Virus record (IMG/VR): IMGVR_UViG_3300013099_000053
Coordinates: 1 to 33,810 of that record
Length of the DNA stretch: 33,810 nucleotides
Direction: 5' to 3' (one strand)
DNA from: a virus
Below the pieces are notes generated by a model. That model saw only the letters and a list, made by a program, of their open reading frames with translations, was not told the DNA's origin and ran no database searches. Position 1 is the first letter of the stretch. Every line of letters starts with the position of its first letter. A program made the position numbers and the translations under genes. Positions 11,323 to 33,784 of the stretch are shown here, in pieces.

Positions 11323-11898
11323 ATGGCTAGAAGATCAAGACCTGAAAAACAACCTAAGAAACAAAGACCTAGATGTTTTGGTCATCATGGGTTGATTTAT
11401 AAGGCTATAAATAAAACTAATAATATGGTTTATATAGGTCAGACTATTTATACTTTAAGGACAAGAAAAATGGAGCATGAGAGAACTGCTGGACACAAAA
11501 AAGATTATTTTCATAATGCCATTAAAAAATACGGCAAAGAAAATTTTGAGTGGGAAGTAATAGACTACGCTGAGACACAAGAAGGGTTAGATGAAAAAGA
11601 GACTCATTATATAAAAAAGTTTAGGTCTTTTATAGATTTTGAAGATAGTAACGGCTATAATCTAATGTTTGGTAAGATTGTTAGTAGATCAACTAAAGAG
11701 AAACTTTCGGTGGCCAACAAAAATAAAAAAGTTAGTGATGATACTAGAACTAAATTATCACAGACAAACAAAGGTAGAAAACAATCTTTACAGACTAAAA
11801 TGAAAATAGCACAATCAATGACTGGTAAGAAACGTTCCGAAGAAACCAGATTAAAGATATCTCAGTCTATGAAGGCATTTAAAGGGAGGAAGTTATAA
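11323..11898 (+). CDS. GIY-YIG homing endonuclease with NUMOD3 repeats
   Basis: This 191-aa protein has its own ribosome-binding site (AAAGGAG). After a very basic N-terminus (1-17) the GIY-YIG domain shows GLIYKAIN (23-30), VYIGQTIYTLRTRK (36-49), E93 in EKETHYIKKF and N113 in GYNLMFG. From about 122 to 190 run three or four NUMOD3-like helices (STKEKLS, SDDTRTKLSQTNKGRK, TKMKIAQSMTGKKRSEETR) that contact DNA in known enzymes such as SegA-type nucleases. It is a distinct sequence from the other endonuclease at 8820, with a different C-terminal half, so it is a separate acquisition rather than a recent duplicate. Its stop overlaps the next ATG (TAATG). Confidence 0.9.
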   Translation: MARRSRPEKQPKKQRPRCFGHHGLIYKAINKTNNMVYIGQTIYTLRTRKMEHERTAGHKKDYFHNAIKKYGKENFEWEVIDYAETQEGLDEKETHYIKKFRSFIDFEDSNGYNLMFGKIVSRSTKEKLSVANKNKKVSDDTRTKLSQTNKGRKQSLQTKMKIAQSMTGKKRSEETRLKISQSMKAFKGRKL

Positions 11899-15358: not shown

Positions 15359-16960
15359 ATGGCTCGAAACAGAATAATTTACGCATCGCAGAGTGTGTGG
15401 GTAAATGGCGAAGTGCTTTATCGTGTCCAGTCTCTGGGTACGACTACTACATTTACTTCTGAAGATATTTTCGAATTAGGGCATCTCGATATTATTGACG
15501 TTGTTGATGACGTTCCCGCTGTTGCGGTTACGCTGAATACCAATGATTTCGGTGATGTGCGTACTCTTGCTGTTCTTGCTCAGATTGCACCTGAGAAGAT
15601 CGCTATGGATGCTACAGCTACTAACTCAAATGCTAATTTGGTAGTGGTTAGTGGTACACAGCTTGTCGAGACCAGCACCTATATTCATGGTGTGTCTCTG
15701 GCTGACTTTGCTATCACATGTGGTAATTTACCTGGCGTATCTCTCTGGGCTCCGGTCCAGGACGAGTGTGCTTTGGGTACTCTTGCTAATGATATAGATC
15801 AGTCCTTGTTTTTGGATGAAGTTTATATTAATAGTCTTGAGTTTAGCTATACAACTGGCGCCAATGCCACAGAGAACTATGGCGCTGAGACTGACAACAA
15901 AATGTGGCTGTTGAATGATGGAAAATTTGTTAACTGGGATTCATGGACACTGGATGGTACTGATATCAGTAATACCTATGTAGATATGGATCTTGGAGCT
16001 TCTGATGATGTAGCGATATTGTCTTCTGGACTTGGTTTTTTGAGGAAAGATGATAACGGCGTTCCCGCTATAACAGTTAAGGACGCTACCGAAGAGACTG
16101 CTACTAACATTGCAGTTGTAACTGGTGTTGCCCAAGCTCAAGATACTTTTGTGTATCATGATACTGGATCACAACATAGGCTTTATTTTCCAGCCGCGAT
16201 ATCACCTGCTCTTGCAGCCGGTGATACTTTGGAGGCGATATACTCAGCGGACGCTTATGGAGTTGGCGTTGAAGATAACTACTTTGTAGCTCTTTCTAGT
16301 GCTGATCGTCCGGATTCTATTGGTGCTATTAGACAGGGTCAGGTTGAAGCATATATTGTTTCACCGACTGCTAGTGACTTTGATATCTCTTGGCGTTTAA
16401 CTGGTGTTACTGTTACTGCTGATCTTACACGTGAGCCTCTTAGTGAGCTTGGTCATTTGGCTCCGTACGATCGTCCGCTTACACTGCCGATACCTATTAC
16501 AGTTACGGTAGACTCTACAGCTGGTGACCTTGAGAATTGGTCTAAAGTTGCGGATAGGCTGACTGCGTACGAAGATATGACTATGGATGATATTGATCTT
16601 GCAGACCTTATGACTTCTGAGGATCTTAAGCTTGTTGTTAAGATCTATGCTCAGACTGATGAGGAAGCTGGCGGAACTGCCGATAATAGGACAGTTATGA
16701 CTGGATCTGATCTTATAGGTCAGAATTGGTTGCTGGATGGTACCCTTGGTACTTATGCTTCTGCTGGTGACACTGAGCATGCTCTTAAGACTATTGTAGT
16801 TGAGCATCTTAAGATAACGGATGAAGGTATGACTTTGGATATGGGTGCTAACGCTACTCAGACATTCGGTTTTAGGTCTACTAATGATATGTATGTTGTA
16901 AAGGGTGATATTACTATTGATGTTATCACTACTGACTTTAAAATTAGGCGTAATGCTTAA
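15359..16960 (+). CDS. Major tail (tube) protein with internally duplicated tube domain
   Basis: This 533-aa protein has a near-ideal ATAGGAGG site and its own leader. Two halves share sequence: ELGHL at 39-43 and 363-367, and GANATxxxG at 167-175 and 496-504. In each half the two motifs lie 128 and 133 residues apart, and both are followed by matching hydrophobic strands (DNKMWLLNDG against NDMYVVKGD). This implies two fused tail-tube domains with a beta-rich insertion (about 190-320). A protein of this design would form trimeric rings with pseudo-sixfold symmetry. Position before chaperone-like genes and the tape measure gene is diagnostic for the tube. Codon use is shifted (CGT, CTT, GCT and higher GC, against AGA and TTA in neighbours), as expected for the most abundant virion protein. 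Confidence 0.8.
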   Translation: MARNRIIYASQSVWVNGEVLYRVQSLGTTTTFTSEDIFELGHLDIIDVVDDVPAVAVTLNTNDFGDVRTLAVLAQIAPEKIAMDATATNSNANLVVVSGTQLVETSTYIHGVSLADFAITCGNLPGVSLWAPVQDECALGTLANDIDQSLFLDEVYINSLEFSYTTGANATENYGAETDNKMWLLNDGKFVNWDSWTLDGTDISNTYVDMDLGASDDVAILSSGLGFLRKDDNGVPAITVKDATEETATNIAVVTGVAQAQDTFVYHDTGSQHRLYFPAAISPALAAGDTLEAIYSADAYGVGVEDNYFVALSSADRPDSIGAIRQGQVEAYIVSPTASDFDISWRLTGVTVTADLTREPLSELGHLAPYDRPLTLPIPITVTVDSTAGDLENWSKVADRLTAYEDMTMDDIDLADLMTSEDLKLVVKIYAQTDEEAGGTADNRTVMTGSDLIGQNWLLDGTLGTYASAGDTEHALKTIVVEHLKITDEGMTLDMGANATQTFGFRSTNDMYVVKGDITIDVITTDFKIRRNA

Positions 16961-17031: not shown

Positions 17032-17295
17032 ATGGCTGATGATATGGTCACTAATAAAAGCAGGGAAAAGCTGAAAAGAACGGTAGAAGCAGAAATAACA
17101 AAATTGTTCGAGAGCGTTTTAGATTACGCTCAGGTTGCTGTGCCGACCTCTGATACTTTTAAAGTTTTAAGGTCTAAGATATTGAGGGTCGGTAATAATT
17201 GTATAAGGACTATTAAGGATAAATTAGAACATTACGATGTGGAATATACGGCTGTTGGTGAAGACATTATAGAAATTCAGCAACAAAGTAAATAA
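17032..17295 (+). CDS. Small helical protein of unknown function
   Basis: This 87-aa protein has an AAGGAGGG site. It is almost entirely helical by residue pattern (REKLKRTVEAEITKLFESVL and TFKVLRSKILRVGNNCIRTI), with charged and hydrophobic residues spaced for a coiled coil or helical hairpin. It has no signal peptide or membrane segment. I do not recognise it. It lies between the major tail gene and two chaperone-like genes, separated from the tail gene by a strong hairpin, so a minor structural or assembly role is likely. Confidence 0.5.
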   Translation: MADDMVTNKSREKLKRTVEAEITKLFESVLDYAQVAVPTSDTFKVLRSKILRVGNNCIRTIKDKLEHYDVEYTAVGEDIIEIQQQSK

Positions 17296-17314
17296 AGGTG
17301 AAGGAGATAATATT

Positions 17315-18079
17315 ATGGTGGAAGATAAAATTAACACGGAAGAAAAAGAAGAGGTATCTGAAGCAGACAGAAGGAGTTTCTTAGGTCCTGATGACACTAC
17401 TAACTACTATATAGTTGCTCCAGATGCAGGTAATATAAGGGATGCGGATTGGAATTATAGTAAATTATATACTAAATGTCTTTTGGAAGGTATAACCACC
17501 GCCGCTGAAATGATGGAGATTTTAAAAAGGCGCGGTATAATAGGTCCTGAGTTTGAGCAAAGAGCGTCGGAGTTAACCAGCGTTCTTAATGAAAAGATCG
17601 TTGCTTTAGATGGTGCTACCAACATAGAGGAAAAAAGAAATTCCGCTATAGATGTTGCAAACGCCAGAGAAGATCTGTTTCAGTGGAATCAGAGACTCAA
17701 TGGTCCTATGGCTAACACATGCGAACAGATTGCTGATGATGCTAGGTTAGAACACCTTACTAGTTGTATGATAACAAGTGAAGACGGTAGTAAGGTTTGG
17801 TCTTCTTATGAAACATTTCTGGAAGAAAAAAGTCAATCGCTTGCTTTGAAAGCTAGATTTGAAGTAATGCTTTATCTGCAGGGACTGACTTCTGATTTTT
17901 TAGAGCAGACTCCAGAAGCTGTAACTATGCGTGAAGTTGAAGCCGAACTTACAAATCGTGCAGAGGAAGCTTTGAAAGCCGCTAAAGCATTAGCAGAAGA
18001 AAGACTTGCTGACGCTGATGAAAAAGAAAAAGCTCCTAGAAAGAAGAGAACTACTGCAAAAAAGAAAACTACCAAATAG
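17315..18079 (+). CDS. Tail assembly chaperone-like protein A (paralogue of next gene)
   Basis: This 254-aa protein has an AAGGAG site. It has an acidic N-terminus (1-20), a helical middle and a C-terminal acidic coiled coil (about 205-240) ending in a lysine-rich tail (KKRTTAKKKTTK). Residues 49-90 and 147-196 align almost without gaps with 47-90 and 146-195 of the next protein: W162, Y165, E166, L169 and G190 match W161, Y164, E165, L168 and G189. Siphophages keep tail assembly chaperones (lambda gpG and gpG-T) exactly here, before the tape measure gene, so a role in binding the tape measure during tail assembly is inferred. An A-AAA-AAG sequence in phase near the end (18058-18064) is a possible -1 slippery site. 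Confidence 0.5.
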   Translation: MVEDKINTEEKEEVSEADRRSFLGPDDTTNYYIVAPDAGNIRDADWNYSKLYTKCLLEGITTAAEMMEILKRRGIIGPEFEQRASELTSVLNEKIVALDGATNIEEKRNSAIDVANAREDLFQWNQRLNGPMANTCEQIADDARLEHLTSCMITSEDGSKVWSSYETFLEEKSQSLALKARFEVMLYLQGLTSDFLEQTPEAVTMREVEAELTNRAEEALKAAKALAEERLADADEKEKAPRKKRTTAKKKTTK

Positions 18080-18124: not shown

Positions 18125-19135
18125 ATGAGTTTAACTGGTGAGGAAGTAGAGCGCTATCTATATAGAATTTTTGGCGGCAAATATAAAACATATATAGATG
18201 ACAAATTAATTGGGTTTCGACAACCCGATTTAGATATTCAGCTAGATTCTAATATTGTATATGATAAAACTTTAAAAGATGCTTTAGCTAATGGAATGCT
18301 TTCTTTAAAGGATCTAGAAAAGCTTATACTTGAAAAAGGTCTGTTTACTGAGGAAGACGAAGCTCAACTTAATAGATTGAAAGACCAGCTAGAAGCACAA
18401 GAGGTTTTGTTGTCGAAAGTAATAAGAGTAAAAGGTAAGCCTGAAAGAGTAAAAGGTATTATCGCTAAACTTGAGAAAGAGATACTTGAATTAAGACACA
18501 AAAAATCCTCAATGTTGTTATTGTCCGCAGAAAACAAAGCTGCTGATGATAAAGTTCTATACATCTGTTCCAAATGTTCTTATTACGACGATGGAAATTT
18601 AATTTGGAATGCCTATGAGGATGTACTCTCAGAAACTAATTTAATGTTTAAAAACGAAGTGTTACTAACTTTTTTGAGATTTTACAATGGCATAAGTAAT
18701 GAAATAATAAGGTATATATCTAGAAGTAGTTTATGGCGAATTAGGTATGTTTCTGCCTGTAAAACAGGAGATTCTTTATTCAGTGTTCCTACTTCTGACT
18801 ACACTAATGATCAATTGAATTTGGTATACTGGTCTAATTTTTATCAGAATGTTTATGATATGATGCCTGATGACAGACCATCCGATTTGGTAATCGAAGA
18901 CGACGATGCGTTAGATTCTTACATGAAGTCTTACTACGAGGAAAGGCAAAGAGAGGACGCTTCAAGAAGACAAAAACAAACGCATGGTAAACTTTCAGCT
19001 TTCGATAAAGAAGAAGTTATAATTACCAAGTCCAACGATATGTATGAAGATATGAAATATGATAAACCAAGAGAAGCACAAAGAGTCAAAGATAGAGTTG
19101 ATTTAAAGAAAAGGGCTGTGCACAGGAGCAGATAG
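18125..19135 (+). CDS. Tail assembly chaperone-like protein B (paralogue of previous gene)
   Basis: This 336-aa protein has an AAAGGAA site. The first 200 residues match the previous protein in two blocks with constant offset (TLKDALANGMLSLKDLEKLI against LYTKCLLEGITTAAEMMEIL; IWNAYEDVLSE against VWSSYETFLEE). It adds a charged coiled coil (about 75-130) and a C-terminal extension of about 135 residues rich in acidic then basic residues, ending RVDLKKRAVHRSR. C148 and C151 form a CxxC not shared in full with its paralogue. The pair recalls the short and long chaperones gpG and gpG-T, except that the long form here is a separate gene rather than a frameshift product. Function is inferred from position and paralogy. 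Confidence 0.5.
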   Translation: MSLTGEEVERYLYRIFGGKYKTYIDDKLIGFRQPDLDIQLDSNIVYDKTLKDALANGMLSLKDLEKLILEKGLFTEEDEAQLNRLKDQLEAQEVLLSKVIRVKGKPERVKGIIAKLEKEILELRHKKSSMLLLSAENKAADDKVLYICSKCSYYDDGNLIWNAYEDVLSETNLMFKNEVLLTFLRFYNGISNEIIRYISRSSLWRIRYVSACKTGDSLFSVPTSDYTNDQLNLVYWSNFYQNVYDMMPDDRPSDLVIEDDDALDSYMKSYYEERQREDASRRQKQTHGKLSAFDKEEVIITKSNDMYEDMKYDKPREAQRVKDRVDLKKRAVHRSR

Positions 19136-19174: not shown

Positions 19175-19207
19175 GTATATTTATAATATACGGAGGTGCC
19201 AATCTTG
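19175..19207 (+). promoter_or_regulatory. Hairpin, ribosome-binding site and TTG start of the tape measure gene
   Basis: A 7-bp hairpin (GTATATT 19175-19181, AATATAC 19185-19191) stands directly before GGAGG (19192-19196). The best start is TTG at 19205-19207, eight bases downstream. A GTG at 19196 overlaps the last G of the ribosome-binding site and cannot use it. A rare TTG start next to a strong binding site suits a protein needed at few copies per particle. Confidence 0.7.
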
Positions 19208-22200
19208 GCAGATAAAAAAATCATAGAGATTCAGGATAAGACTACAGGTGGCTCATCCACTAGGACGTCTCGTGGTGGTACAGCCACTCCTACCGTTATG
19301 CCTGCCAGTTTTAAGCGTTTAGAAAAAACTGCCAAGGTTCTGGAAGATTCCACTAAAGATCAAAAAAAATTAATACAGGAGCAAACTAAAGCTCTAACTA
19401 CTACTGTTGAAAAGGTTTTTGATAAACAGTTTAAGGGACAAAAACGTCCTGAAGGTCTTACTGCTAAACAGTTTAAAGACGCAATGAAGCTTGCGGTAGC
19501 GGAAGCTTTAACACCGTTAATTAAGAAATTAGGAGCTACTCCTAGAGGAGCTATACAGAAAACAGGTGATCCCAAAACAGATAAACTTTTAAAGGGGATT
19601 GAGAAAAGTGTAGAAGAAGGATCTAAAGCAGGAGCAAAAGAACTTTCCAAAATAATCGGTAAAAAAACAGGTGTACAATTAGATGCTCAAGGCATAGATA
19701 AACTTTCTCGTGCTGTATCTAGCGCTGTTATGAAAGCTATACCACAAAGTACTGGTGATGCAGCCAAAGGAGCAAGTGATCTAATTAAGAGTAGTAAAGA
19801 AGGCTGGAAGGCTGTAGGTGAGCTTACTAAGAACATACAGAGTTTACGTAAAGGTGGTGTTGAGACTAAAGAAGTAGCTGCTTTATCTAGTAACATAAGC
19901 ACATTAGCTAAAGAACTAAAAAATATGGCTGCTGCTACTAGCGGGTTATTATCTTCCATTAAGAGTATGGGTGATGAAACTAAAGAGTTAAAGAAAGAAC
20001 TTACTTCTTACAGTAAAGCTATAGATACTAAACTAAAGACGGTACTAGCTGCTTCTAAAAAAGATCCAGTAAGCGCTGTTAAGACTGTCACTAGTAATAT
20101 AGCAAGCAGGCTTCCTGCTGATCCTAAATTTGATAAAATAACTAGAGCCTTAGAAGCTGTAGCTTCAAAAGTAGAAGGCGTAGAGGATTTCAAAAAGGAA
20201 TTTAAATCTGGAGTTAGAGAGATCAAAGATGCCTTTAAAGAGGTAAAAACTGTCGCAGGGCTAGATGCTAAGTCAATGGCTGCATTAGATGCGGCTGACA
20301 AATCTTTTACTGCTTTAAGTAAGGTTTTAGTTAAGACTACTACTGTAACTAAAGTTAAAGTAGATGATAAAGACGCCAAGAAGAAATTAAAGCAGTTAGA
20401 ACAAGGTACTACTATAGAAGCAGAGGTAGTAATTGACGATAAGAAAGTTGATGCTAAATTAAAAAAGTTAGAAGCCAAGGTAGAAAAATTTAAGAGTGCT
20501 TTTGCCACAATTGGCGGACCAAAAAACTTAAAACTAGAAGGTGCAGAAGGCGCCTTAGATTCTATAATGAAAATGAAAGAACTTGTTAATGATCTTGATA
20601 GTAAAGGTCTAAAGAAGTTTTCTCTACAGTTAAATTTTTTAGAGATTGCCCTTGCGGATGTGGCTGCTGCATTTCATGAAAAGCTAAGTCCTCCTAAACA
20701 AGCTTTGGATAGACTTTCATCTTCTTTAAAACGTCTTGATCTTCCTAAGATAGAGTTAGATATAACTGCTGATACTTCTGAGGCAGAAAAAAAAGTAGAG
20801 GAAGTAAAAGATAAATTAAGCAAAGATAGTATATCTATAGATGTTAAGTTTAATTTTGAAAAAGAAGCGAACAAACTACTTAAAGGTATAGAAGGTCGTA
20901 TAGCTGATATAAGTAAAACTCCTGCTGTTATGGGAGAGCCAGGTAAAGGGTTAGATACTTTAAAATCTTTACAGGGACAGAAAGTTATGATAGAGGGTTT
21001 ATCCTCCACGGCTAAAACTCTCACTACTTCTAATAAAGATAATGTAAAAGAACAACTTAAAATTATCCAAGATATATTTAAAGATTTAACCAAAATGCTA
21101 TCTTCTGGAACAATAGAAAGACCATTGCCTGTAAGTGCAGCCCCAGCTCCGGCTGCTGCTGGTGGTGGACGTCCACCCAGAGATCCTAGATCAACTGTAC
21201 AGGAACCTCCACGCCAACCTAGGAAAGCTTCCCCAGATATACGTGCTCCTAGGATGTTTGCTCCCTTCGAAGAAAAACTAATTGAACCTTCACAAGCCGG
21301 AGTCAACTACCCGACTGCAGGTCTTGCTTATGGTAAAGGAGTGCGAGAAAACATATCTAAAAATGTGTCAGAGTTGCAGAAGTCTTTAGATGATTTACAG
21401 AATTACATGGTAAAAGAGATGGAAAAAGCACTTACTGAGAGTGCTAAAGGGTGGGAAATAGTAAGAGAGAAAGGTGCTAAAAAAGCAGATTATTTTGTTC
21501 AGGCAGCCGGAACAAATCTAAAAGAATCGTCACAGTGGAAGTTTCAGATAGCTAACATAGGTAAAATGGTAGCTGCCATTACTAAACAAAGTACTATGGC
21601 TGGTGTAGATGTTATGTCTCCAGCAGAGCTTTCTGCGTCTTCTCCTAAACAGATAGTAGAAACTTATATAAAACGCAGGACTTCGGAGAAAGCAGCTTTT
21701 ACTCCTAAAGGTGTGCATGCAGAGAAAATAGGAGAATGGTTAGCTAAGACTCCTATGGAGGATGTGGGTAGTTTTGCGTTAGATAAAAGTACCGTTGATA
21801 GACTGAAAAAAATTAAAAAGACCCATAAAGGTACAGAAGCAGGAGAAAAATTAATTTCTGCTATAAGTGCTAGATTTGACAACGAAAGTGAGTTGATAGA
21901 GGTATTTAAGAAAACGTTTGCGGAAACTATGGTTAAAAGAGAAATGCTCCAAGACGTTGCAGGTGACCCAGCTTTATTAAGAAATATAGCTTTACCAGCT
22001 GCGAAATTAGGAGCATCTGGTGGAGCTTCACTGAGGACATTATCTGGAAGTAAAAGAGGTTTATCTAAATTTGCTACTTTTAAAACTGGCTATGAGGAAA
22101 TGTATGATAGGCTAAGTGCTCCTGAAGCCGGTATGCCTACTGAGTTTCTTGCTGGCACAGCTAAAAGTATTAGAACTGTTACAAAAACTAGACCTAAAAG

Positions 22201-25200
22201 TAGAGTAGAGTTAGAAAATTTTTCTGAATTGTCAAAAACAATGATGACTGCTTTAGCGGCTGTTGGTGAAGAGCAGGTAGGTTTTATTACAGAGCAGTAT
22301 AAAAAAGCTGGTGTAATGAAGGGCATAGAAAGAAAATCTGCAGGATTAGGTAATATAGAAGAATTTAGTTCTAAAATAAATGATGCTGTGAATAACTTAA
22401 AAGCAGAAGATTTTGCTGCAGGACAGTTCATAGATAAAATGCAAAAAGCCGGGGTTTCTGCTTATGACTTTGCTAAGTCTTTAGATAATGTAAAGTTTGA
22501 AAATATATATGATGTGTATAAAAAAATATTGGAGAAACCAATAAAAGGTGTTGCGGAAGCTCCTGGTTGGACTAAACCTATAAGAACCTATGAAAGAGCT
22601 ATACATCAGCTTGAACAGCTTATGCCTTTAGTTGATCCTTCCAGACCTAGAAGAGGCATGCATCAAGAAGCTGTTGTAAATGTTATTACTAGGACAAGTC
22701 CTGTATATGCTGAAGAAAAGACTTTTGATCCTCAATTTCAAAAAACCGTTATAAAAGATTTAAATGTAAGATTTAATGAACTGATAAATGAAGTTAAAGA
22801 GCTAAAAAAACTTCCTGAAGGCATAGCTGGAGAAAGGGCTAAGCAGATAGGTTTGCCTGCTGGTATGCAGGCTTTGTCTACGTTAGGTATACCAGATGCT
22901 CAAGCAGGGACTTTCATTGATTACAGAAAAGGCACGTTAGGTGCAGGTGTAGATAATGCTGCAGATAATTTTAAAGAGGGCATAGACCATTTACAGGTGT
23001 TGGGCGGTGTATCTGTAAAAATGTACAGTGATAATCTTAGGTCTTTCGCACCATTCGCAGAAGAGTTTCAACATTGGGGTAGGAATATTTCTAGTGTTAC
23101 AAACGCAATGGCTTCTTCGTCTAAAGAGATTGGTAAGCTTTCTGGTACTCCTATGGGTGGTAGAGGTACAGAATTTCCTTCTTTGAGGACCGGAAGAGAG
23201 AAAGAAGTTTTAGCCGGAGGAAGATACGGTACAAAAGGTTACGGTTTTAATGTTTTAGCTGAGTTAAGGCAGACAGCTGGTACTTTCGAGGATCAGGTTT
23301 TAATATCTGGTAAATTAGCAGATGCTCTGACTACGGCAGTTAGGACTTTAGTTCAGCCGAGTGCTGCTGGGCGTGTTACACTAGGCGAATCAGTGGTTCC
23401 AGAGGAAAGAGCAGCTATTGAGGGTATTAGAGAAGGTTTATTGAAAGATTCTAAGTCACTTCAAACGGCTGTAGGAGAGATATCCAATGTATTTCAAAAT
23501 GTTTTAGGTATACCACAAAGATATAAAGGTAGAGCAGATAAGGCTCTTGTAGATGAAGTTAAGAAGGTAATATCTATAGTTAGAAGTGAACCTGTTGAAG
23601 TTCAACAAGCAAAAATAGCTGAAGTATTCCTTAGTCATTTTGGACGTAAATTTACTACTAGATACGGTATGAAGGGTGTAGGAGTAATGGCTCCCGGAGC
23701 GGCTCCTTCAGGTGCTGGTAATATACAAGATATACTAAAATCTTATGGAGAAGCAAAAATTAAGATATTGACTCCAGAAGAAAGAGAAAAAGCTGGTCTT
23801 GGTGTTGCTGTTATGCCTAAAAGTATGGGCGAAATAGCAGGTGAAATGATAGATGACCAGATAAAGAAAATTGTTGACGAGGGCGCCAAAGGAAGCGGTA
23901 AAGAAGTAAAGGGATTAGAGACGCTTAAGAAGAGTTTAGTTACCTCTGGAAATAAATTTATGGTGGATATGTTTAAGCAGTTTAGTGCTGAAGGTATCAT
24001 ACCAGAAAAAGAAGTACAATACGAAGCAAGAGAACAAAAGATTTTATTTGATAAATTTGCTAAAGTATACAAAGAGTTATTTAGTGAGGATCTAATAAGT
24101 GATATAAAAGGTATAAATGCTCTAAAAGATACATATACTAAAAATATGGAAGGGGAGTTATATAAAGAAAAACCTATAGACATTAGAATAAGGGCAGCTG
24201 GTATTGGTGGTAGAGGATTACAGCCAGAGGTACTTGAATCTGTAGTTAGTAATATAGCTGGTACAGGTGCAGGAGGACAGACTACTGTAAAGACTGAATT
24301 AGGAAAGAAGTCTTATGAGAAACTATTAGGTACGTCTGGAAAAAGGGGTGAATTAGCAAACCTTTCCGAGGCTTTGGGATTTAAAAAAGCAGGTAAATGG
24401 GAAGGAACTGGTTTTAAAGATATATCAAAAGAATCTATACAGAAAAGTTTAGAAGAAAAATATGTAAAAGAAGATGCAAGCGAAGAAGATATAAGAAAAG
24501 CAGTAGATCAGGCTACCCGTGGCGCTTCTTTAGAAGCCGATTCACAATTTTATGTAGATATAATAGATGAGTTCGGAGAAAAGAGAAGAAGCCTCGTAGG
24601 AGAAAAATTCCTACAGATTATAGAAGAACCTCATGCATACGCAGAATGGTCTAAACAGCAAATAAGGGAAGGAAAGAAAGGTATAAAGTTAAACTTGCCT
24701 GCCTATTCTGCTTATGCTCACATATTTGGTGAAGAATCTAAATTAATAGATGAAATCAAGATGTCTGTATCAGACAGCTCTCAGGAACATTGGGAATATA
24801 TAAAAGCGTTCATGATAGGTATGGGCGAGAACGAGGAGTTAAGAAGAGCTGCTATTACGGAAGCTTTAAAAGAAGTAAAATTAGAGGACATAAGATCTTT
24901 TGATTTACACACAGGCTCCTTTAAACCCTCAGAAATAGACAAACTTACCGGTAAAGAGATTACTCCTGAGCGTTCTTTCGTAGGCACGGCTTTGGATGTC
25001 AAGAAATTTCCCGCGCCATTTAAAGTAAAAATACCTAAAACTAAACCTACCAAAGAAGAAACCAGGTTAGGTAAAGACTGGGAAGATCTTTACGTTCCAG
25101 GAGCTTTGGCTAGAGGTACTTATCCAGAGCCTTTAATTGCTGGTGAGTATGGTCCTAAAGGTGTAGCTAGAAGAATTCAAATACTAATTAATGCTGCTAA

Positions 25201-28200
25201 GAAAGCTGCTTCATTAAAAGAGCCTGGTAAAATGTCAGAGGCTTTTTCTGACGCCGATATAGGACAGTTACCTGCAAAATTAATGAATAGTTTAAAACAG
25301 GTTATGCAGACTCCTCCAGAACAAGCCACTAAGAAAGGTGTAGCAGAAGCAGAGGCTTTGTCTAACGCGCTATTAAACACAATAAAACAGTTTGAGGATT
25401 TTTACGCGGAAGATACCGGAGAAAAATATGTTTTGGCAGATGTTTATGGTGGTATTAGTCCTCTTGAGTATATAGAAAAAAGACTAATGTCTAAAGTAAA
25501 GAGAGAAGGTGTTCCTGCTGAAACTGATGTTGCTGGTCAGCAAAAACGAGCGGCGTTTGTACTTTCTGATATTTCCGAGATGCTTATTGGACCTAGTCCT
25601 CAGCAACGTGGAGAGGCTTTAACTCCAGAGAAGAAACAGAAGCTTTCTGCTAAAACCATATTCGATCAACTTAGTAAAGTAGAAAAAGCAAAGTTAGCTA
25701 TTACAGTAGATCCTGGATTACAAGAAAAAATGTTAGACCAGGCTTTAAACCAGCTAGAGAATGCTAAGCTTGCTTACTATGATACACTAGCCCAATCTGT
25801 TTTAGGAAAGACTGGTTCTATAGGCGCCACTGTATTTTCAAGAAGAATCGAAGGAGTAATGGGTAAAGCTATTACTGCTGTTGTCGATAAAAGAGAAGAG
25901 TTAGAGAACTTTAGTTCTGCTCTTAAAGGTATAGGTACACAGTTCGCAGATATAGTAGACGTCGGACAACTAAATGACGTCATTGAGAAGATAGGTGAGA
26001 TACATAGGGAACATAGAGATAAAGTTACTGAGCAACTTAAGAGAGGTTTGCCTGTTTTAAAACAGCACGAGGTAGGTATACCTAAAGGATATGCCGAAAA
26101 AATAGCTGTAACGTTCGCTAAGAAATATAAAGTTTTAGAGGATGAAAGTGGCATTCCTGATATTGTAGCAGACCCACAAAAAGCCAAAGAGAGTAGCTTG
26201 TATGATATGCTTGAGTATATTGAGAAACTTGAGTGGGCTATGAGGGAACAAGTAAAATCTGTAAGATCTACTGGCAGGCAGATGGCATCTGGTGGTAGAC
26301 CTGAAGATGCTGCTAGCTTAGTAGCAAACATTGAAGCTTCAATGGGTGAGTATAGGGACTATATAGAAAAAGAGTTAGTGCCTTATGTAGAAGCTGTGAG
26401 ATTTCCTTTTACTGGTACTTCTTCTGTACAGCCATATAAAGCTAAGCTTTTAAGGAAGCCTAAAGAAGCGAAGTATAACTTAGCAGAACATGTCATTGCT
26501 GCTCCAGGTGTTCCAGAAATGGATGTTCCTGGTTTTGAAAAGCAGATAAATGTTTTAAAGAGTGTAAGAGAAGGAGCTTTTGGACAAAGAGAAAAACTAA
26601 TGCTTACTCCAGGAGGAATGACTCCTGACCTCGAAAATAAATTTGAAAAGCTTACAAAGTTAATAAATGAATTAGATAAAGCTATTTCTGATGTCATACC
26701 GAAATATATAGCCCACCAAATGAAATTAGATTTTGATGGTGATACTTTAGATATACACTCCGCTTCATTACTAGAAGCAAGGAGAGAAATTAAAGAACAC
26801 TTCCAGAAACAGATGCATGAGTTAGGCACCAGTGCAAAAACAACTGCGTCAGTTTTAAGGGACCAATTTACCTATGGGGCTGTCCAACCTCCTACCGGAG
26901 AATTTATTTTAGCTGAAATGTCGGCAGCTTTTGAGAAGAAAGGGTTTACTCCTGAAAAAGGTCAAGAGTTTTTAAGGAAACCGTTTCTCACACAGAAGTT
27001 AGAATATTTAAAACCTGCCCAACAATTAGATATTTTATCTGGATTACCTGGAATAGCAGAGAGAGCAGAAGTATCTGATGTAGCTAAATTTGGAGAAGGA
27101 GCATCTAAACCATTTACAGCCCTAGAGAAAGTTTTAGAGACTACAGATGTTTCTTCTGACGCTATGGCCAAAGCTATTGAAGATGTAAAGATGTCTATAG
27201 AAGCAGGTAATACAACATCAGATAGTATGTTAAATGCTATTAAAGACGCCTCTACTAGGAAAGTAGCTGTCGAAGGTGTACGTAAAGGATTGTTTGAATC
27301 TAAATACGAAGATGCCATAGAAGCTCAGCTGTATAAAATACATACAGGTCAAGATGTTGAAGCCATAATGCGATTAATGCGTGTTGCTGAGACCCATACT
27401 GGTTTTGGATCTGGAGGATTAATAGGTCAATCAGGACAAGACTATAAATATGCTACTCCTGAGTTCAAGCAGCGCTGGCCAGAGGGGTTGAAGCTGTTTG
27501 GTCCTGAGGGTCCGGCTTCTGAAATGTCAGTTATATTAAATGAAATGCAACGGTTTGCCCAACAGAAGGGTATTGATGTCAAGCATGCAGGAGCAGCTCC
27601 TATTGCTCAGGATATACTTAAAGCTTTAGGTAGACAAGAGAAGGATTTAGAGCAGTTGTTTAAAAACATAGGTGTAGTGGCAGGTGTAGAAGGCACAGGT
27701 GATTTTGGTGAACTAGAAGATCTATATAAAGCTAATGCTAAAGCTATTAAAACCAGACTTGGCGAAATGACTACTCCAGAAATTAGAGGAGAACTTAAAT
27801 CTCTTTACCAGGCTAGAGGTGAATCAACTTTTGGTTTAGGTAAAATGGGTAGAGGTGAATTACAAGAGCAGGTAGTAGAGACTATAGGGTTCAAAGGGGT
27901 AATGCGCGAATTACAGCGTATAATCCAAGAAGAAGCTAAGAATGGTATTATGGCTAGTTTATCTGGTATGGAACCTAGTAGACGCGCAGGCAAGTTAAGA
28001 GGTTTTGGTTCAGAAGAAGAGTATGCTAGTGCCCAAGTACTTAAAGCCATGAAGACTGCTGAGGGTATAAATATAAGTAATCTCATAGTTAAACCACAGC
28101 AGCCTTTTTATCCTTTAAGGACTTTTGCAGCAACTCCTAAATCTGTTAAAGAGACTAGAGAGAGAAGAGGCGAGGAGTATACAGGGCGGAGTGAAAAATT

Positions 28201-31200
28201 CGATAGGGCTAAAGCTGTAGCCAGGCAGTTAGAAGAGGCTTTTCAAACTGCTAGACCAAGAGAAGGTGGCAGACAGGCTGGTGGTTATGGTGAAATGGTA
28301 CGTAGTACCATGGCTAATGTAGAAAGGCAGCAAGAAGAGTTTGAAGCTCTTTATACTAAAGGTGTAGAAAGTATGTCTAATGTTGTTCCTGGTTTAGATA
28401 AATCAAGCACAACTAAACAGCTTAAGTCTATGAATAAACAGATTCAAGTATGGGAAGACATGGTAGGTTTACCTTCCATGAGTATACAAGAAATGTATCA
28501 AACAGAACAAAAAGCTACAGAACAGGCTTTGTCAGCAGCCGAGCGTGCTTTTGGTGACGTAGAGACAAGTGGAATGACTGCAGAACAATATGATAAAACA
28601 ACAGAAGAGTTTATACAATCATATATTGAGAAAGCAAGAGCTTTAGAGAGAATAGACAAAATATGGGAAGTTTTGCAATATAGGGTGACAGAGGCTGGTG
28701 TTTATCAGGCAATGTTTCCAAAAGATATAATACATAAACCTGCCACTAAGCAAATAGATAGAGGAATTTTTGGTGGGACAGAGGCAGCTAGATCTACTTC
28801 TAAAGGTCCTATATCCCCTAAAGGCGGTGCTCGTATACCTGGTGCAGGTGCTCCAGGAGGTGGTGATTTCTTATGGGAAGGTGGTATTGTTCCTGTACAT
28901 ATAAAAAGTATAGAAGAAGGCTTGGTTCTTGTTTTTGGTGGTGAGTACACAGGCAAAGGATCTGGAGGTGCTGATGATTCCGCAGCGATTTTTAATAGGA
29001 AGATGGCTGCTATAAAAGAAGCTAGAGGTGATGCAGGTATAGGTGATGCAGACCCAGGCGGTATATACAGTAGTGCCAAAGAACCATTGAGTCCTAAATC
29101 TAGAGGCGGTTATGGTCAGTACGTTAAACCCAAACCAATAGCAGAAGGTAGAGGTTTGGAATCTGTTTATGAAAATTTGAAGATGTTTCATGAATCAAGT
29201 AAACAGTACCAACAAACTGCTAACCTATTAGATTACGATCTTGGCGCTAGGACTATGCCTGATGATATAACAAAGATGATATCTGAAGCTAGAGAGAAGG
29301 GTCCTAAATGGCAAGACTTTATAGAGATGGGAAGAAAGCTCAAAACTGAGGGAGATGATACTGGCAATGTAATGTCAGGAGCCCAAGTAATGAAAGCCAT
29401 GAAGTTATATAAAATGGCTGAGGCTGATTTTCTTATGTCGCAAGCTGATGAAGCCAAGAAAGCTTTAGATGAGGCTGAAAAATCAGGTAATATAGTTGAG
29501 AGAAATAAAGCTTATGGTAAATTAGCTATGTCTGTAAAACAGATGCAGACTTTTGTTAGGGATAAAACTTTAGGCAAAGCCACGGATATTTATAGAGATA
29601 AGGGAGGTTATATTGAACCTGACCTTGCTCAAGGGGCAGGTGTTTACGTTTCTAAAGAAGATCTAATGAAAAAATCCCAGGGTGGTTTGGGAGAAGATCC
29701 TCAGTTACAGCAAACTTTTAAAATGCTTACTTCTGATATTTTAGAGGGCGGGAAGCTAACAGCTCCTATTACTAAAATAAAGAAGGTTTTTGATGTTCTC
29801 AGTGATCAGAATGATGAGATGGTAGAAATACTTCTTAATGCTGATAAACTTGAGCGGGTAGGCGTAGAGTTTATTGATGCTTGGGATTTTGGTAATGTAG
29901 TAGACAAAGTATCTACTTTAAGAGAAGAACTAGAAAAGATAAATAAGTTTAGACCTGAGGAAATGACTGCTAAGCAGACTCAGAATTTAACTAACACGAT
30001 AAAGTTTTTAAAAGGTATAGAATCTTCTTATGCTCCGTACGTTACTTCTCCTAAAAGAGGTTTAGGTGAGGATGAAATGGGTTGGGGTAGAATGGGTACT
30101 AAAAGAGTACCTAAGACAGTAGATCCTTCTGTACAGAAAGCAATGCACGCTGCTAATGAAAAAAGAGTACGAGAGTATTTTAAATTAAGTAAAGCAGCAG
30201 AAGGTCCTGCACAAGGAGAGAGATATCAATACACAACAAAGATTTTTGGGGATATGGGAGATGTTATACAGCACCGTATAACTGATTTTCATAAACTAAG
30301 TGATGCTATTAACGCTGCCGGAGAAAAAGTAGGTGTTTTTTCTGAGAAGTCTAGAGATATGTTTCATGAAAAAACCAAAAGATCTTCATTCAAAGAAGCT
30401 ATGATGAGGGCTGTTAGGTGGGGCGCTGCATCTAAGGTTGTTTATGGCGGAGCCGGGTATTTAAAAGACTCATTAGACACCATTGGTGATGTGGAGATGG
30501 GCATAGCAAAATTAAGAATGGTTATGAGTCCTTTAGAAACTGATTTCGATATGCTTGAAAAATCAGCTGTGGGTTTTGCTAAGCAGTATGGTGTATCAAT
30601 AACAGGTGTTTTAGATGGAATGAAGATATTTGCACAGCAGGGTCTTGGACAGGCTGAGGTTATAGATAGGACTAGAGCTGCTACATTAGCTGCTAATGTT
30701 ACTACACTTAATGCTAAAGAAGCTACAGAGGCTTTAACTGCTGCTACTAAGATATATAGAACAGAAGGAGAAAGTGTGGTTGGTTTTCTGGATGCCTGGT
30801 CAGAAGTTGAATCTAGGCACGCTATTACTGCCGGTGATTTGGCTAATGGTCTTAAGAAGTCAGCTGCTGCAGCCAAAAACGCAGGTATTGATTTTGATCA
30901 GTTAAATGGTATGATTACTGCTATAGGTGCAACTACTAGGCAGACAGGTAAAGAGGTTGGAACTTCCCTAAGATTTATATTTAGAAGGTTAACCTCTGAA
31001 AAAGGACCTAAAGCTTTGGCCGAGATAGGTATTCCTACCACTGAAGGAAGAAAAGGTGTTCAGGAGTTAAGAAGTGGTTTCGATATTTTACATGATTTAG
31101 CAGGCGCGTGGGATGGTTTAACAAGCGCACAAAAAATGAATGTATCACAAGCTATCGGTGGTACTAGGCAGTATAATCAGCTTTTGGTATTGATGGATCA

Positions 31201-33715
31201 GTGGGATGAAGCTTTAATGGCTATAAACACAAGTATTAATTCTAAAGGTTCTGCTGAGCGTCGTAATATAGAATTAATGAAGACCTACCAAAAACAGTTA
31301 GCACAAACTCAACAGGCAGCTAACGAATTAAAAATAGAGTTCGGTAAGATTTATTTACCTTTAGCTAAATTTGGTCTGAAAGGAATGCGTGGTTTCTTAG
31401 AGACATTGAGTGCCATTCCCACATCAGTTAAAGTAGCGGCTGTAGCTATTACGACCCTACTTACCGTTCTTGCTAAAGGTGGAGGTATGATAGACTATGT
31501 GGTAGAGAGTTTTAGGACTGGAAAAGAACAAATAAGGGCATTTGCCGGTGATATTAAAAAGGGCTTAAAGGCAGGTTCTTTTGAGGCTTTTGGTGTTGGA
31601 AGACAGGGAGCCGATGATGATTTGTGGGGATTAAAGCAGATAGGTGAAGGTGGAAACGTACTTTCTGACTTTCATACAGGATTAGGAAAATCAGCTTTTT
31701 TGATTACAAATTTAGGAAGAAAATATAATGCTTTTATAGGACCTGCTATAGAGAGTGGGTCTAGTTTAGGAGAAGCCTTAGCCAAGGGCTTAAAAGAAAC
31801 AGGAAAGTTTATTGGTATTGGAGCTGCGGCATATTCTGGTCTTAAAGGAACTGGTAAGGCAGGAAAGTCTGTTTATACAGGAGTAAAAGGTGTAGCTACA
31901 GGAGGCATGTCTTATGCCGATGGCAAGTTGGCTGGAACAGCTGCAGGGCGGTTTAAATATGCTTTTTCTGAAAAAGAACTTGTTAAGAAAGTTCTTGGTA
32001 AAAGTGTACTTAGTAATTTATTTAAAGGAGCATTAAAAGCTACAGGAATTGGATTTATACTATCTGAAGTAATAGGTGGTGGTTTATACGCTGCAGGCGA
32101 AGCTATTGATACAGACAGACCTAAAGGAATGAAAGGTATAAAAGAACAGATAAGAAAAAGAGGTTTAGGTAGCGAAGCATTAAAAGGTTCCATAAAAGAA
32201 AAAGGATTTATTAAGGGTATAGCTGGTAAAGGTAAAGATATAACAGCTGTTATGGGCGTTGCCGCCGGTCAAAGTATGGAGGTTGCAGGAGAAGCGGCAG
32301 AAGAACTTTTTCAAAATACAGGAAAATTCGGTAAGTTATTACAGACACAGTGGGCAGGCGCAGGCGCTGATTTAAAAAGATCTATAGGACCTTTAGTAGT
32401 TACTATGGCTGCTTTACTTCCAGTAGGTAAAGTAGTATATGAACAATGGAAAAAAGTAACAGGCACTGCGCAAGAATTTGAAAAGGCTATGTACGATATT
32501 AGGAGAGAACAAGAATCTGGTCTTTCAAATGTAAAAGCCATATCAGGTCAGTATACTATGTTGAAGAGAAGACTTACTGACATTAGAAAACTACAAGCCT
32601 TGCCTCCCGAAGAGCTTAAACGTAGAAAAGAATCTGAAACTTATGAGGCGCCAATAGTAGGATTAGCTAAGATACAAAAAGACGCTATTGGTGTAGCAAA
32701 TAGTCTTGCCGATATAAATTCTACTTTAGCTGTAGGTTATGATAATCTTGGTAATGCGGTTCTTAGAACAACAGATAGTTTTGAAAAGCACTTGATGACT
32801 TTAGAGCAATCTAAGATAGGAGCAATATTAAAGACCGATATAGAGGTAATAGAAAAATATATTTCTTCTTTAACTGAGCTAGGTGGTGATGAGAAATGGA
32901 AGGTAGCATTAAAAGGGGTAGTTGAGGCTATGCCTGTAGTCGGTAAAAAGTTAGGTGAGCAGATAGAGGTAGGACCAGCCAAAGCTATTTCTGTACTAAG
33001 CGAGAAACTAAATAAACTGTCGTTTGCTCAAAATAAAGCTCCGCTAACCGCGGCTTTCGCACCAGAGATTAAAAAACAACAAGAGCTGTTAAAGAAAGCA
33101 AAGACAGGTTTTGATGAGACATATAAAAACTTTAGAGCAACTTTAGGTAAGTTGGATTTTGGTAAGATGACTAGAGAAGAGATTACTAAACTACTTACTT
33201 CTCCTGACATGCAGGAAGGATTTAAGTTGATCTTTGATGTTGAACCTGAGTTTAAATTACTACCTAAAACAGAAAAACAAGTAAGATTATGGTCTACTGG
33301 TCAGCAGTTTCCAAAAGGTCACGCTAGGGATTTCAGTCAGTTAACTAAAACAGTAAGCTATGATACTGGTGCTAAATGGGAAGATGTGATGGGCGCTGAA
33401 CTTATGAATAGGGTTCAGGGTTTAACTAAGGGGTTTATAAGAGCCCACGCAGAATTAACAAAGGGTGTTTTAGAGACAGCAGGTGTAAAAGCTAGGGATA
33501 AAAATAATAGAGTTATAAAAGCACAGATAGGAGATATTGTAACATTTTTTGATGATGTTGTTTATGAATATGGTATGTCAGCACAGCAAGGCATCCTTAA
33601 ACTAAATGATGTTGATGAGTGGGTTGTTGAATATTTTAATAGTAGGACACTTGAGATAGAAGAAAGAGCTTTTGATAAAGATATACAGAAAATGGTTGAA
33701 CAAATCTTTTCTTGA
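19205..33715 (+). CDS. Giant tape measure protein with embedded two-barrel RNA polymerase-like module
   Basis: The gene is 14.5 kb and encodes 4836 aa from a TTG start. Residues 1-640 are coiled coil with two VxVDxxxAxKKLxxL-type repeats (near 382 and 518), typical of tape measures. A Pro/Ala-rich linker (638-690) follows. Residues of about 700-3170 carry RNA polymerase beta motifs (FED 1361-1363, K1482 and K1490, P1538) then beta-prime motifs (R2399, D2509/D2511/D2513). A Gly/Pro-rich linker spans about 3180-3320. Residues 3753-4095 match the TP901-type phage tail tape measure core (DSLDTIGDVEMGIAKL, TGVLDGMKIFAQQGL, GTSLRFIFRRL). The C-terminus has hydrophobic stretches (VAAVAITTLLTVLA, GIGFILSEVIGGGLYAAG, GPLVVTMAALLPVG) able to insert in membrane on ejection. 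It sets tail length, is ejected ahead of DNA, and probably delivers a polymerase. The tape measure call is firm; the polymerase is a motif-based inference. Confidence 0.9.
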   Translation: MADKKIIEIQDKTTGGSSTRTSRGGTATPTVMPASFKRLEKTAKVLEDSTKDQKKLIQEQTKALTTTVEKVFDKQFKGQKRPEGLTAKQFKDAMKLAVAEALTPLIKKLGATPRGAIQKTGDPKTDKLLKGIEKSVEEGSKAGAKELSKIIGKKTGVQLDAQGIDKLSRAVSSAVMKAIPQSTGDAAKGASDLIKSSKEGWKAVGELTKNIQSLRKGGVETKEVAALSSNISTLAKELKNMAAATSGLLSSIKSMGDETKELKKELTSYSKAIDTKLKTVLAASKKDPVSAVKTVTSNIASRLPADPKFDKITRALEAVASKVEGVEDFKKEFKSGVREIKDAFKEVKTVAGLDAKSMAALDAADKSFTALSKVLVKTTTVTKVKVDDKDAKKKLKQLEQGTTIEAEVVIDDKKVDAKLKKLEAKVEKFKSAFATIGGPKNLKLEGAEGALDSIMKMKELVNDLDSKGLKKFSLQLNFLEIALADVAAAFHEKLSPPKQALDRLSSSLKRLDLPKIELDITADTSEAEKKVEEVKDKLSKDSISIDVKFNFEKEANKLLKGIEGRIADISKTPAVMGEPGKGLDTLKSLQGQKVMIEGLSSTAKTLTTSNKDNVKEQLKIIQDIFKDLTKMLSSGTIERPLPVSAAPAPAAAGGGRPPRDPRSTVQEPPRQPRKASPDIRAPRMFAPFEEKLIEPSQAGVNYPTAGLAYGKGVRENISKNVSELQKSLDDLQNYMVKEMEKALTESAKGWEIVREKGAKKADYFVQAAGTNLKESSQWKFQIANIGKMVAAITKQSTMAGVDVMSPAELSASSPKQIVETYIKRRTSEKAAFTPKGVHAEKIGEWLAKTPMEDVGSFALDKSTVDRLKKIKKTHKGTEAGEKLISAISARFDNESELIEVFKKTFAETMVKREMLQDVAGDPALLRNIALPAAKLGASGGASLRTLSGSKRGLSKFATFKTGYEEMYDRLSAPEAGMPTEFLAGTAKSIRTVTKTRPKSRVELENFSELSKTMMTALAAVGEEQVGFITEQYKKAGVMKGIERKSAGLGNIEEFSSKINDAVNNLKAEDFAAGQFIDKMQKAGVSAYDFAKSLDNVKFENIYDVYKKILEKPIKGVAEAPGWTKPIRTYERAIHQLEQLMPLVDPSRPRRGMHQEAVVNVITRTSPVYAEEKTFDPQFQKTVIKDLNVRFNELINEVKELKKLPEGIAGERAKQIGLPAGMQALSTLGIPDAQAGTFIDYRKGTLGAGVDNAADNFKEGIDHLQVLGGVSVKMYSDNLRSFAPFAEEFQHWGRNISSVTNAMASSSKEIGKLSGTPMGGRGTEFPSLRTGREKEVLAGGRYGTKGYGFNVLAELRQTAGTFEDQVLISGKLADALTTAVRTLVQPSAAGRVTLGESVVPEERAAIEGIREGLLKDSKSLQTAVGEISNVFQNVLGIPQRYKGRADKALVDEVKKVISIVRSEPVEVQQAKIAEVFLSHFGRKFTTRYGMKGVGVMAPGAAPSGAGNIQDILKSYGEAKIKILTPEEREKAGLGVAVMPKSMGEIAGEMIDDQIKKIVDEGAKGSGKEVKGLETLKKSLVTSGNKFMVDMFKQFSAEGIIPEKEVQYEAREQKILFDKFAKVYKELFSEDLISDIKGINALKDTYTKNMEGELYKEKPIDIRIRAAGIGGRGLQPEVLESVVSNIAGTGAGGQTTVKTELGKKSYEKLLGTSGKRGELANLSEALGFKKAGKWEGTGFKDISKESIQKSLEEKYVKEDASEEDIRKAVDQATRGASLEADSQFYVDIIDEFGEKRRSLVGEKFLQIIEEPHAYAEWSKQQIREGKKGIKLNLPAYSAYAHIFGEESKLIDEIKMSVSDSSQEHWEYIKAFMIGMGENEELRRAAITEALKEVKLEDIRSFDLHTGSFKPSEIDKLTGKEITPERSFVGTALDVKKFPAPFKVKIPKTKPTKEETRLGKDWEDLYVPGALARGTYPEPLIAGEYGPKGVARRIQILINAAKKAASLKEPGKMSEAFSDADIGQLPAKLMNSLKQVMQTPPEQATKKGVAEAEALSNALLNTIKQFEDFYAEDTGEKYVLADVYGGISPLEYIEKRLMSKVKREGVPAETDVAGQQKRAAFVLSDISEMLIGPSPQQRGEALTPEKKQKLSAKTIFDQLSKVEKAKLAITVDPGLQEKMLDQALNQLENAKLAYYDTLAQSVLGKTGSIGATVFSRRIEGVMGKAITAVVDKREELENFSSALKGIGTQFADIVDVGQLNDVIEKIGEIHREHRDKVTEQLKRGLPVLKQHEVGIPKGYAEKIAVTFAKKYKVLEDESGIPDIVADPQKAKESSLYDMLEYIEKLEWAMREQVKSVRSTGRQMASGGRPEDAASLVANIEASMGEYRDYIEKELVPYVEAVRFPFTGTSSVQPYKAKLLRKPKEAKYNLAEHVIAAPGVPEMDVPGFEKQINVLKSVREGAFGQREKLMLTPGGMTPDLENKFEKLTKLINELDKAISDVIPKYIAHQMKLDFDGDTLDIHSASLLEARREIKEHFQKQMHELGTSAKTTASVLRDQFTYGAVQPPTGEFILAEMSAAFEKKGFTPEKGQEFLRKPFLTQKLEYLKPAQQLDILSGLPGIAERAEVSDVAKFGEGASKPFTALEKVLETTDVSSDAMAKAIEDVKMSIEAGNTTSDSMLNAIKDASTRKVAVEGVRKGLFESKYEDAIEAQLYKIHTGQDVEAIMRLMRVAETHTGFGSGGLIGQSGQDYKYATPEFKQRWPEGLKLFGPEGPASEMSVILNEMQRFAQQKGIDVKHAGAAPIAQDILKALGRQEKDLEQLFKNIGVVAGVEGTGDFGELEDLYKANAKAIKTRLGEMTTPEIRGELKSLYQARGESTFGLGKMGRGELQEQVVETIGFKGVMRELQRIIQEEAKNGIMASLSGMEPSRRAGKLRGFGSEEEYASAQVLKAMKTAEGINISNLIVKPQQPFYPLRTFAATPKSVKETRERRGEEYTGRSEKFDRAKAVARQLEEAFQTARPREGGRQAGGYGEMVRSTMANVERQQEEFEALYTKGVESMSNVVPGLDKSSTTKQLKSMNKQIQVWEDMVGLPSMSIQEMYQTEQKATEQALSAAERAFGDVETSGMTAEQYDKTTEEFIQSYIEKARALERIDKIWEVLQYRVTEAGVYQAMFPKDIIHKPATKQIDRGIFGGTEAARSTSKGPISPKGGARIPGAGAPGGGDFLWEGGIVPVHIKSIEEGLVLVFGGEYTGKGSGGADDSAAIFNRKMAAIKEARGDAGIGDADPGGIYSSAKEPLSPKSRGGYGQYVKPKPIAEGRGLESVYENLKMFHESSKQYQQTANLLDYDLGARTMPDDITKMISEAREKGPKWQDFIEMGRKLKTEGDDTGNVMSGAQVMKAMKLYKMAEADFLMSQADEAKKALDEAEKSGNIVERNKAYGKLAMSVKQMQTFVRDKTLGKATDIYRDKGGYIEPDLAQGAGVYVSKEDLMKKSQGGLGEDPQLQQTFKMLTSDILEGGKLTAPITKIKKVFDVLSDQNDEMVEILLNADKLERVGVEFIDAWDFGNVVDKVSTLREELEKINKFRPEEMTAKQTQNLTNTIKFLKGIESSYAPYVTSPKRGLGEDEMGWGRMGTKRVPKTVDPSVQKAMHAANEKRVREYFKLSKAAEGPAQGERYQYTTKIFGDMGDVIQHRITDFHKLSDAINAAGEKVGVFSEKSRDMFHEKTKRSSFKEAMMRAVRWGAASKVVYGGAGYLKDSLDTIGDVEMGIAKLRMVMSPLETDFDMLEKSAVGFAKQYGVSITGVLDGMKIFAQQGLGQAEVIDRTRAATLAANVTTLNAKEATEALTAATKIYRTEGESVVGFLDAWSEVESRHAITAGDLANGLKKSAAAAKNAGIDFDQLNGMITAIGATTRQTGKEVGTSLRFIFRRLTSEKGPKALAEIGIPTTEGRKGVQELRSGFDILHDLAGAWDGLTSAQKMNVSQAIGGTRQYNQLLVLMDQWDEALMAINTSINSKGSAERRNIELMKTYQKQLAQTQQAANELKIEFGKIYLPLAKFGLKGMRGFLETLSAIPTSVKVAAVAITTLLTVLAKGGGMIDYVVESFRTGKEQIRAFAGDIKKGLKAGSFEAFGVGRQGADDDLWGLKQIGEGGNVLSDFHTGLGKSAFLITNLGRKYNAFIGPAIESGSSLGEALAKGLKETGKFIGIGAAAYSGLKGTGKAGKSVYTGVKGVATGGMSYADGKLAGTAAGRFKYAFSEKELVKKVLGKSVLSNLFKGALKATGIGFILSEVIGGGLYAAGEAIDTDRPKGMKGIKEQIRKRGLGSEALKGSIKEKGFIKGIAGKGKDITAVMGVAAGQSMEVAGEAAEELFQNTGKFGKLLQTQWAGAGADLKRSIGPLVVTMAALLPVGKVVYEQWKKVTGTAQEFEKAMYDIRREQESGLSNVKAISGQYTMLKRRLTDIRKLQALPPEELKRRKESETYEAPIVGLAKIQKDAIGVANSLADINSTLAVGYDNLGNAVLRTTDSFEKHLMTLEQSKIGAILKTDIEVIEKYISSLTELGGDEKWKVALKGVVEAMPVVGKKLGEQIEVGPAKAISVLSEKLNKLSFAQNKAPLTAAFAPEIKKQQELLKKAKTGFDETYKNFRATLGKLDFGKMTREEITKLLTSPDMQEGFKLIFDVEPEFKLLPKTEKQVRLWSTGQQFPKGHARDFSQLTKTVSYDTGAKWEDVMGAELMNRVQGLTKGFIRAHAELTKGVLETAGVKARDKNNRVIKAQIGDIVTFFDDVVYEYGMSAQQGILKLNDVDEWVVEYFNSRTLEIEERAFDKDIQKMVEQIFS
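21302..28714 (+). other. RNA polymerase beta/beta-prime-like module within the tape measure protein
   Basis: This covers tape measure residues of about 700-3170, bounded by Pro-rich and Gly-rich linkers; its size is close to beta plus beta-prime together. Beta-like order: G1347-x-N1349-V-L then G.FEDQVLIS (1361-1368); KFTTRYGMKG (1482-1491), matching KxxxRHGxKG with the two catalytic lysines eight apart; MPKSMGEIAGE (1537-1547), matching PSRMxxGQ. Beta-prime-like order: RFPFTG (2399-2404), the NTP-contacting RxP; LDFDGDTLDIH (2508-2518), matching NADFDGDQMAVH, with LLEA after it. Weaker candidates are RRIEGVMGKAI (2213-2223) for the RVDYSGRSVI element and GVRKGL (2691-2696) for the trigger-loop GARKGL. 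No alpha, omega or sigma genes are present, so it would act as a single chain. Barrel boundaries are approximate. Confidence 0.75.
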
Positions 33716-33784
33716 TTCAAATATTTTTGGAATTTAATCTGCGAAACCTTTGTAATTTCGGGATGGAGTTAAGGAATATATGAA

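Follow-up and report, generated by a model that had tools for sequence, protein, structure and literature searches.

Single-domain tail tube proteins (TTPs), among them SPP1 gp17.1, 80alpha, lambda gpV and Hcp, carry one tube domain per chain and use six chains per ring. A different solution is known from T5 and DT57C, where the hexamerisation domain of pb6 (5NGJ, 9INY, 8HRG) is duplicated and fused and the rings are trimeric (PMC5717097), and from P74-26, whose TTP gp93 (8ED0) likewise holds two tube domains in one chain, accompanies a giant tape measure and forms C3 rings (PMC10034513). In both T5 and P74-26, successive rings touch through a long loop present in each tube domain (PMC5717097, PMC10034513). 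The Caulobacter jumbo siphophage phiCbK encodes a 610-aa major tail tube protein (JX100813) before its chaperones and tape measure, and its tail tube is cited as C3 in PMC5717097 and PMC10034513. The T5 tube consists of 40 rings of 40.6 Å, about 162 nm in all (PMC5717097, PMC8718954), and the P74-26 tail is nearly 1 µm long (PMC10034513). According to sequence records, the tape measures of the two phages have 1219 and 5006 aa, respectively.

We examined a viral DNA stretch of 33,810 nt (the window), in which the original prediction had seen a major tail protein with an internal duplication, and had proposed trimeric tube rings as a solution for a very long tail, possibly reached independently of P74-26. 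We put the probability at about 0.87 that this 533-aa protein is the doubled major TTP of a long-tailed, non-contractile phage, with three chains per ring.

Internal duplication of the 533-aa protein and its family

The reading frame at 15359-16960 is open and translates into 533 aa; it is followed by three ORFs and the tape-measure gene. The features are:

15359..16960, plus strand: TTP gene (533 aa), coding for two tube domains and a middle beta domain
15359..15949, plus strand: tube domain 1, residues 1-197 (AlphaFold2 secondary structure; profile match to domain 2)
15473..15487, plus strand: ELGHL copy 1, residues 39-43, in the long loop that joins strands 18-28 and 55-61
15857..15871, plus strand: GANAT copy 1, residues 167-171, in the turn between strands 146-165 and 170-178
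15950..16315, plus strand: middle beta domain, residues 198-319 (model pLDDT 90, no PDB match)
16316..16957, plus strand: tube domain 2, residues 320-533 (AlphaFold2 model, fold and profile matches)
16445..16459, plus strand: ELGHL copy 2, residues 363-367, in the loop between strands 349-355 and 379-387
16844..16858, plus strand: GANAT copy 2, residues 496-500, in the turn between strands 477-493 and 499-508
17032..18079, plus strand: two small ORFs of 87 and 254 aa that follow the TTP gene
18125..19135, plus strand: 336-aa ORF between TTP and tape measure, without family match
19196..33715, plus strand: tape-measure gene, 4839 codons (PF10145, PHROGs), ending 95 nt short of the contig end

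ELGHL and GANAT are the only 5-mers repeated within the protein. As originally reported, they occur in the same order at residues 39/363 and 167/496, with ELGHL-to-GANAT spacings of 128 and 133 residues; a pair of 5-mers repeated in the same order at a near-equal offset appeared in 8 of 5000 composition shuffles (0.16%). Local alignment shows that the likeness between the two ends extends beyond these motifs. Specifically, residues 17-185 align with the C-terminal part at a Smith-Waterman score of 82, above all 300 shuffles (mean 39.5, sd 6.5, maximum 68). Profiles of the N-terminal end (~195 residues) and the C-terminal end (~214 residues) match each other at E 1.6e-4 when built from 37 sequences and at E 9.6e-6 when built from 61, the best match lying mostly in residues 19-80; the middle ~122 residues have no profile match to either end. 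The duplication of the tube domain is thus borne out by both the pairwise score and the profile-profile match (E 1e-5), and the protein is a single chain with two tube domains that are homologous to each other.

The duplication is conserved in a family of at least 74 loci on more than 70 IMG/VR contigs of up to 545 kb, with best-segment identities of about 35-73%. Taken singly, most of the 61 full-length members, including that of the window, show the N-C similarity, with z up to 13 (L084); no pairwise similarity is seen in the most diverged members (for example L104, L106-L108, L119, L123, L124 and L126). The middle domain is variable in sequence and 115-179 aa long among relatives. The 533-aa protein has no match above threshold in Pfam, PHROGs, INPHARED phages or PDB sequences and profiles. 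GTDB genome contigs yielded two relatives, one binned under the name of a gammaproteobacterium and one under that of an altiarchaeon; as either may be no more than a viral contig caught up in the bin, the bin names are no guide to host.

In several relatives, the stretch of the TTP gene that encodes residues 37-53 is interrupted at as many as three sites by group I introns, which score as high as 89.7 bits against RF00028. Rfam identifies them in L029 (4097-5010), L018, L037, L049 and L050, and gene interruption points to them in L032, L038 and L048. L029 has three introns, and the internal exons between them are just 13 and 32 nt long; the exon upstream of each intron ends in T and each intron ends in G, and splicing restores the frame (EDIFELGHLDIIDVVDDVPAV). 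Two GIY-YIG homing endonuclease genes lie amid the structural genes of the window (8820-9494 and 11323-11898), as befits a family rich in introns. The IRQGQVE-like and QTDEEAGG-NR segment of TTP domain 2 recurs in small standalone proteins of 165 aa (P0002, L128:2896-3390) and ~135 aa (P0003, L129:3675-4079, minus strand), in G005 at a distance of ~68 kb from the TTP. A scan of the collection for the standalone C-domain-like protein returned only its own contig.

Fold of the protein and origin of the doubling

We modelled the protein as a single chain with AlphaFold2 from an alignment of 37 sequences (mean pLDDT 78, pTM 0.79). In domain 1, ELGHL lies in a poorly ordered loop that is followed by a helix, and GANAT lies in the turn joining the two strands listed above; in domain 2, ELGHL is again inside a strand pair and GANAT in a turn. 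Both motif pairs therefore occupy matching secondary-structure positions, with pLDDT below 50 in parts of the ELGHL loops. By analogy, the loop of ELGHL copy 1 may be the counterpart of P74-26 Loop1 (PMC10034513).

A Foldseek search of the PDB with the whole model placed DT57C 8hrg first (E 1.3e-5), along with P74-26 8ed0 (E 3.8e-5), T5 9iny (E 4.0e-5) and the T5 tail-tip protein 7qg9_G (E 5.9e-5), in alignments of 522-562 columns that cover both tube domains. The sixth match is Acinetobacter phage SH-Ab15497 8xan, the leading matches cover 470-560 columns, and T5 tail-tip 9ioz is also among the matches. In contrast, single-domain tubes (8q01, 6yeg, T6SS Hcp, PVC/AFP and contractile-system tubes) score E 8e-3 or worse over ~200 columns. 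The two-domain matches to pb6 and the P74-26 TTP come with modest TM-scores (0.38-0.52, target-normalised) and large whole-chain rmsd, the domain orientation and middle domain are unlike those of the doubled TTPs, and a local alignment across the 122-residue middle region draws its score from both halves. In a viral library, tail or tube proteins are among the matches (best E 4e-11). Folded alone, the middle domain reaches pLDDT 90 and has no PDB fold match below E 0.05; an Ig-like assignment was dropped because of this result. The middle beta domain probably sits on the tube's outer face.

Did this family double on its own? In profile comparisons (INDEPENDENCE), the N and C domains match each other at E 1e-5, whereas neither matches any T5, P74-26 or phiCbK domain better than E 0.06, and no profile homology of the 533-aa TTP to the T5 pb6, P74-26 or phiCbK TTP families was found. 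Matches between T5_1 and T5_2, P74_1 and P74_2, and CBK_1 and CBK_2 were disregarded as overlap of cut pieces. Because the family's own N-C likeness exceeds that to any of these domains, a separate duplication is favoured on the sequence comparison, although not proven; the earlier suggestion of possible independence has gained support to this extent. The same picture could arise if the two halves had been homogenised or had evolved slowly. A single ancient fused lineage, its duplication common to T5, P74-26 and phiCbK, would explain the same two-domain plan and the full-length fold matches to doubled TTPs, and concerns origin only, being compatible with a doubled TTP here. We consider it the less likely origin in view of the E-values above and of the extra domain, which is C-terminal (Ig) in T5 and lies between the tube domains here.

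Place of the protein in the tail

In the build we propose, an ordinary single tube domain was duplicated and fused to give residues 1-197 and 320-533, with residues 198-319 inserted between them. Each chain would contribute two neighbouring tube domains, as wall segments, and three chains would close a pseudo-sixfold ring; the rings would stack and polymerise round the giant tape measure, with the middle domain at the outer surface. Both ELGHL-bearing long loops of a chain would reach into the adjacent ring and, by analogy with the loops of T5 and P74-26, could make the ring-to-ring contacts. The trimeric (C3) ring follows from analogy with the doubled TTPs and from the domain count, and is preferred because six doubled chains would put twelve tube domains in a ring, for which we know of no precedent.

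The place of the gene upstream of a giant tape measure bears on its identity. An alternative is that the protein is a two-domain baseplate-tube or hub protein (compare T5 p140, gp27 and VgrG) and that the true TTP is encoded elsewhere. In hub proteins, tube domains have been duplicated independently (PMC5717097), and T5 tail-tip 7qg9_G and 9ioz are among the fold matches; yet whole TTPs top the fold search, the gene lies a short way ahead of the tape measure, as TTP genes usually do (T5, phiCbK and P74-26), and Pfam and PHROG family searches recognised no other TTP candidate between the two genes, making a hub improbable. Slightly less probable still is that only one half is a tube domain and the motifs are convergent or a small repeated loop element, as the concentration of the best profile match in residues 19-80 and the diverged members without N-C similarity might suggest, since both motif pairs sit at equivalent fold positions and the structural alignment to doubled TTPs covers both halves. 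The assignment as major tail tube protein stands on the gene order ahead of the tape measure and on the fold matches to the T5, DT57C and P74-26 TTPs.

Between the doubled TTP and the tape measure, the 87- and 254-aa ORFs have no family match above cut-off and are, by position, candidate tail assembly chaperones. Further upstream, the window encodes a calcineurin-like phosphoesterase followed by a permuted papain-like (C92) amidase (3167-4403). Profile searches of 15 related records of 71-545 kb found no sheath (PF04984) or Baseplate_J (PF04865) family, with the proviso that PF04984 could miss a very diverged sheath and that the window is itself fragmentary. Since neither family was found in these 15 records, non-contractile tails are most likely; the gene lies upstream of a tape measure in an apparently sheath-less phage.

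Tape measures, tail length and known doubled tubes

The window's tape measure matches PF10145 (E 1e-25, residues 3789-3989) and PHROG tape-measure families (6e-69). Its core resembles Bacillus siphophage tape measures; the nearest by tape measure are Bacillus phages vB_BcoS-136 and FADO, in both of which the TTP is without annotation. We rejected 4839 aa as its complete length, since longer relatives match up to its last residue. It is homologous to the first ~4430-4965 residues of relatives with 7.5-7.8 thousand residues; the long tape measures of close relatives (7663, 7722 and 7488 aa in G003, G004 and G011) belong here, and in G007 (7760) and G008 (7820) the alignment reaches nearly as far. 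G003, G004 and G011 align to its last residue and then run on for ~2,750-3,230 residues. Because the homology covers only the first part of longer relatives, the window's gene is, judged by alignment, incomplete or interrupted. The stop codon is precisely where tape-measure homology ends; the remaining 95 nt (33716-33810) are not homologous and would be either the start of an intron or the end of the assembly; a suspected group I intron at this point received no Rfam call.

Distant relatives have tape measures of 2544 (G015), 3591, 4562 and 4651 aa, and that of G006 has at least 12,367 codons, being open at the end of the examined stretch. The longest is in G005 (IMGVR_UViG_3300037484_000435, 545 kb), where a single tape-measure ORF at 332533-288398 on the minus strand spans 14,712 codons stop-to-stop (PF10145 E 3e-26), ~3 times the P74-26 length. 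A check for concatenation as the source of this 44-kb ORF showed no exact 30-mer repeats. In its C-terminal part, at about residues 12583-12640, it carries a DnaJ (J) domain (PF00226, E 2e-13), which could recruit a host chaperone after injection.

T5 and P74-26, the latter with its tail taken as about 0.88 µm, give a scaling of 0.13-0.18 nm per residue. Estimated in this way, tape measures of 7.5-7.8 thousand residues would correspond to tails of ~1.0-1.4 µm and 14,712 codons to ~2.0-2.6 µm, so that relatives with giant tape measures would be contenders for the longest tail among viruses. We give even odds to the broader proposal that an independently doubled TTP family with an inter-domain decoration domain builds the longest viral tails known, in jumbo siphophages without detectable contractile apparatus. 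A very long tail, as first predicted, was if anything understated, the window's tape-measure gene being incomplete and relatives reaching 7,488-14,712 aa. The accompanying idea that doubling is the solution for such a tail is not supported. Doubling is compatible with very long tails and not specific to them, because T5 is doubled yet has a 162-nm tube, and because tape measures within the family span almost sixfold (2,544-14,712 aa). With one doubled subunit serving tape measures of 2.5-14.7 thousand residues, a single lineage offers a setting in which to ask whether fusion stabilises very long tails.

Among known systems, P74-26 gp93 shares the two tube domains, the giant tape measure and a full-length fold match; it differs in having 348 aa and no inserted middle domain, its own two domains are 16% identical, and it has no sequence similarity to the 533-aa TTP. 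The pb6 proteins of T5 and DT57C give the best fold matches and also bear an accessory beta domain, placed at the C-terminus in T5 and between the tube domains here; T5 is short-tailed, with its 1219-aa tape measure, and pb6 has no sequence similarity to the 533-aa TTP. The phiCbK protein likewise shows no detectable sequence similarity, and its tape measure has 1964 aa. The single-domain TTPs correspond in fold to one half of the protein (~200 columns). A large, previously unclassified family thus joins the few phages known to have fused tube domains (T5, phiCbK, P74-26).
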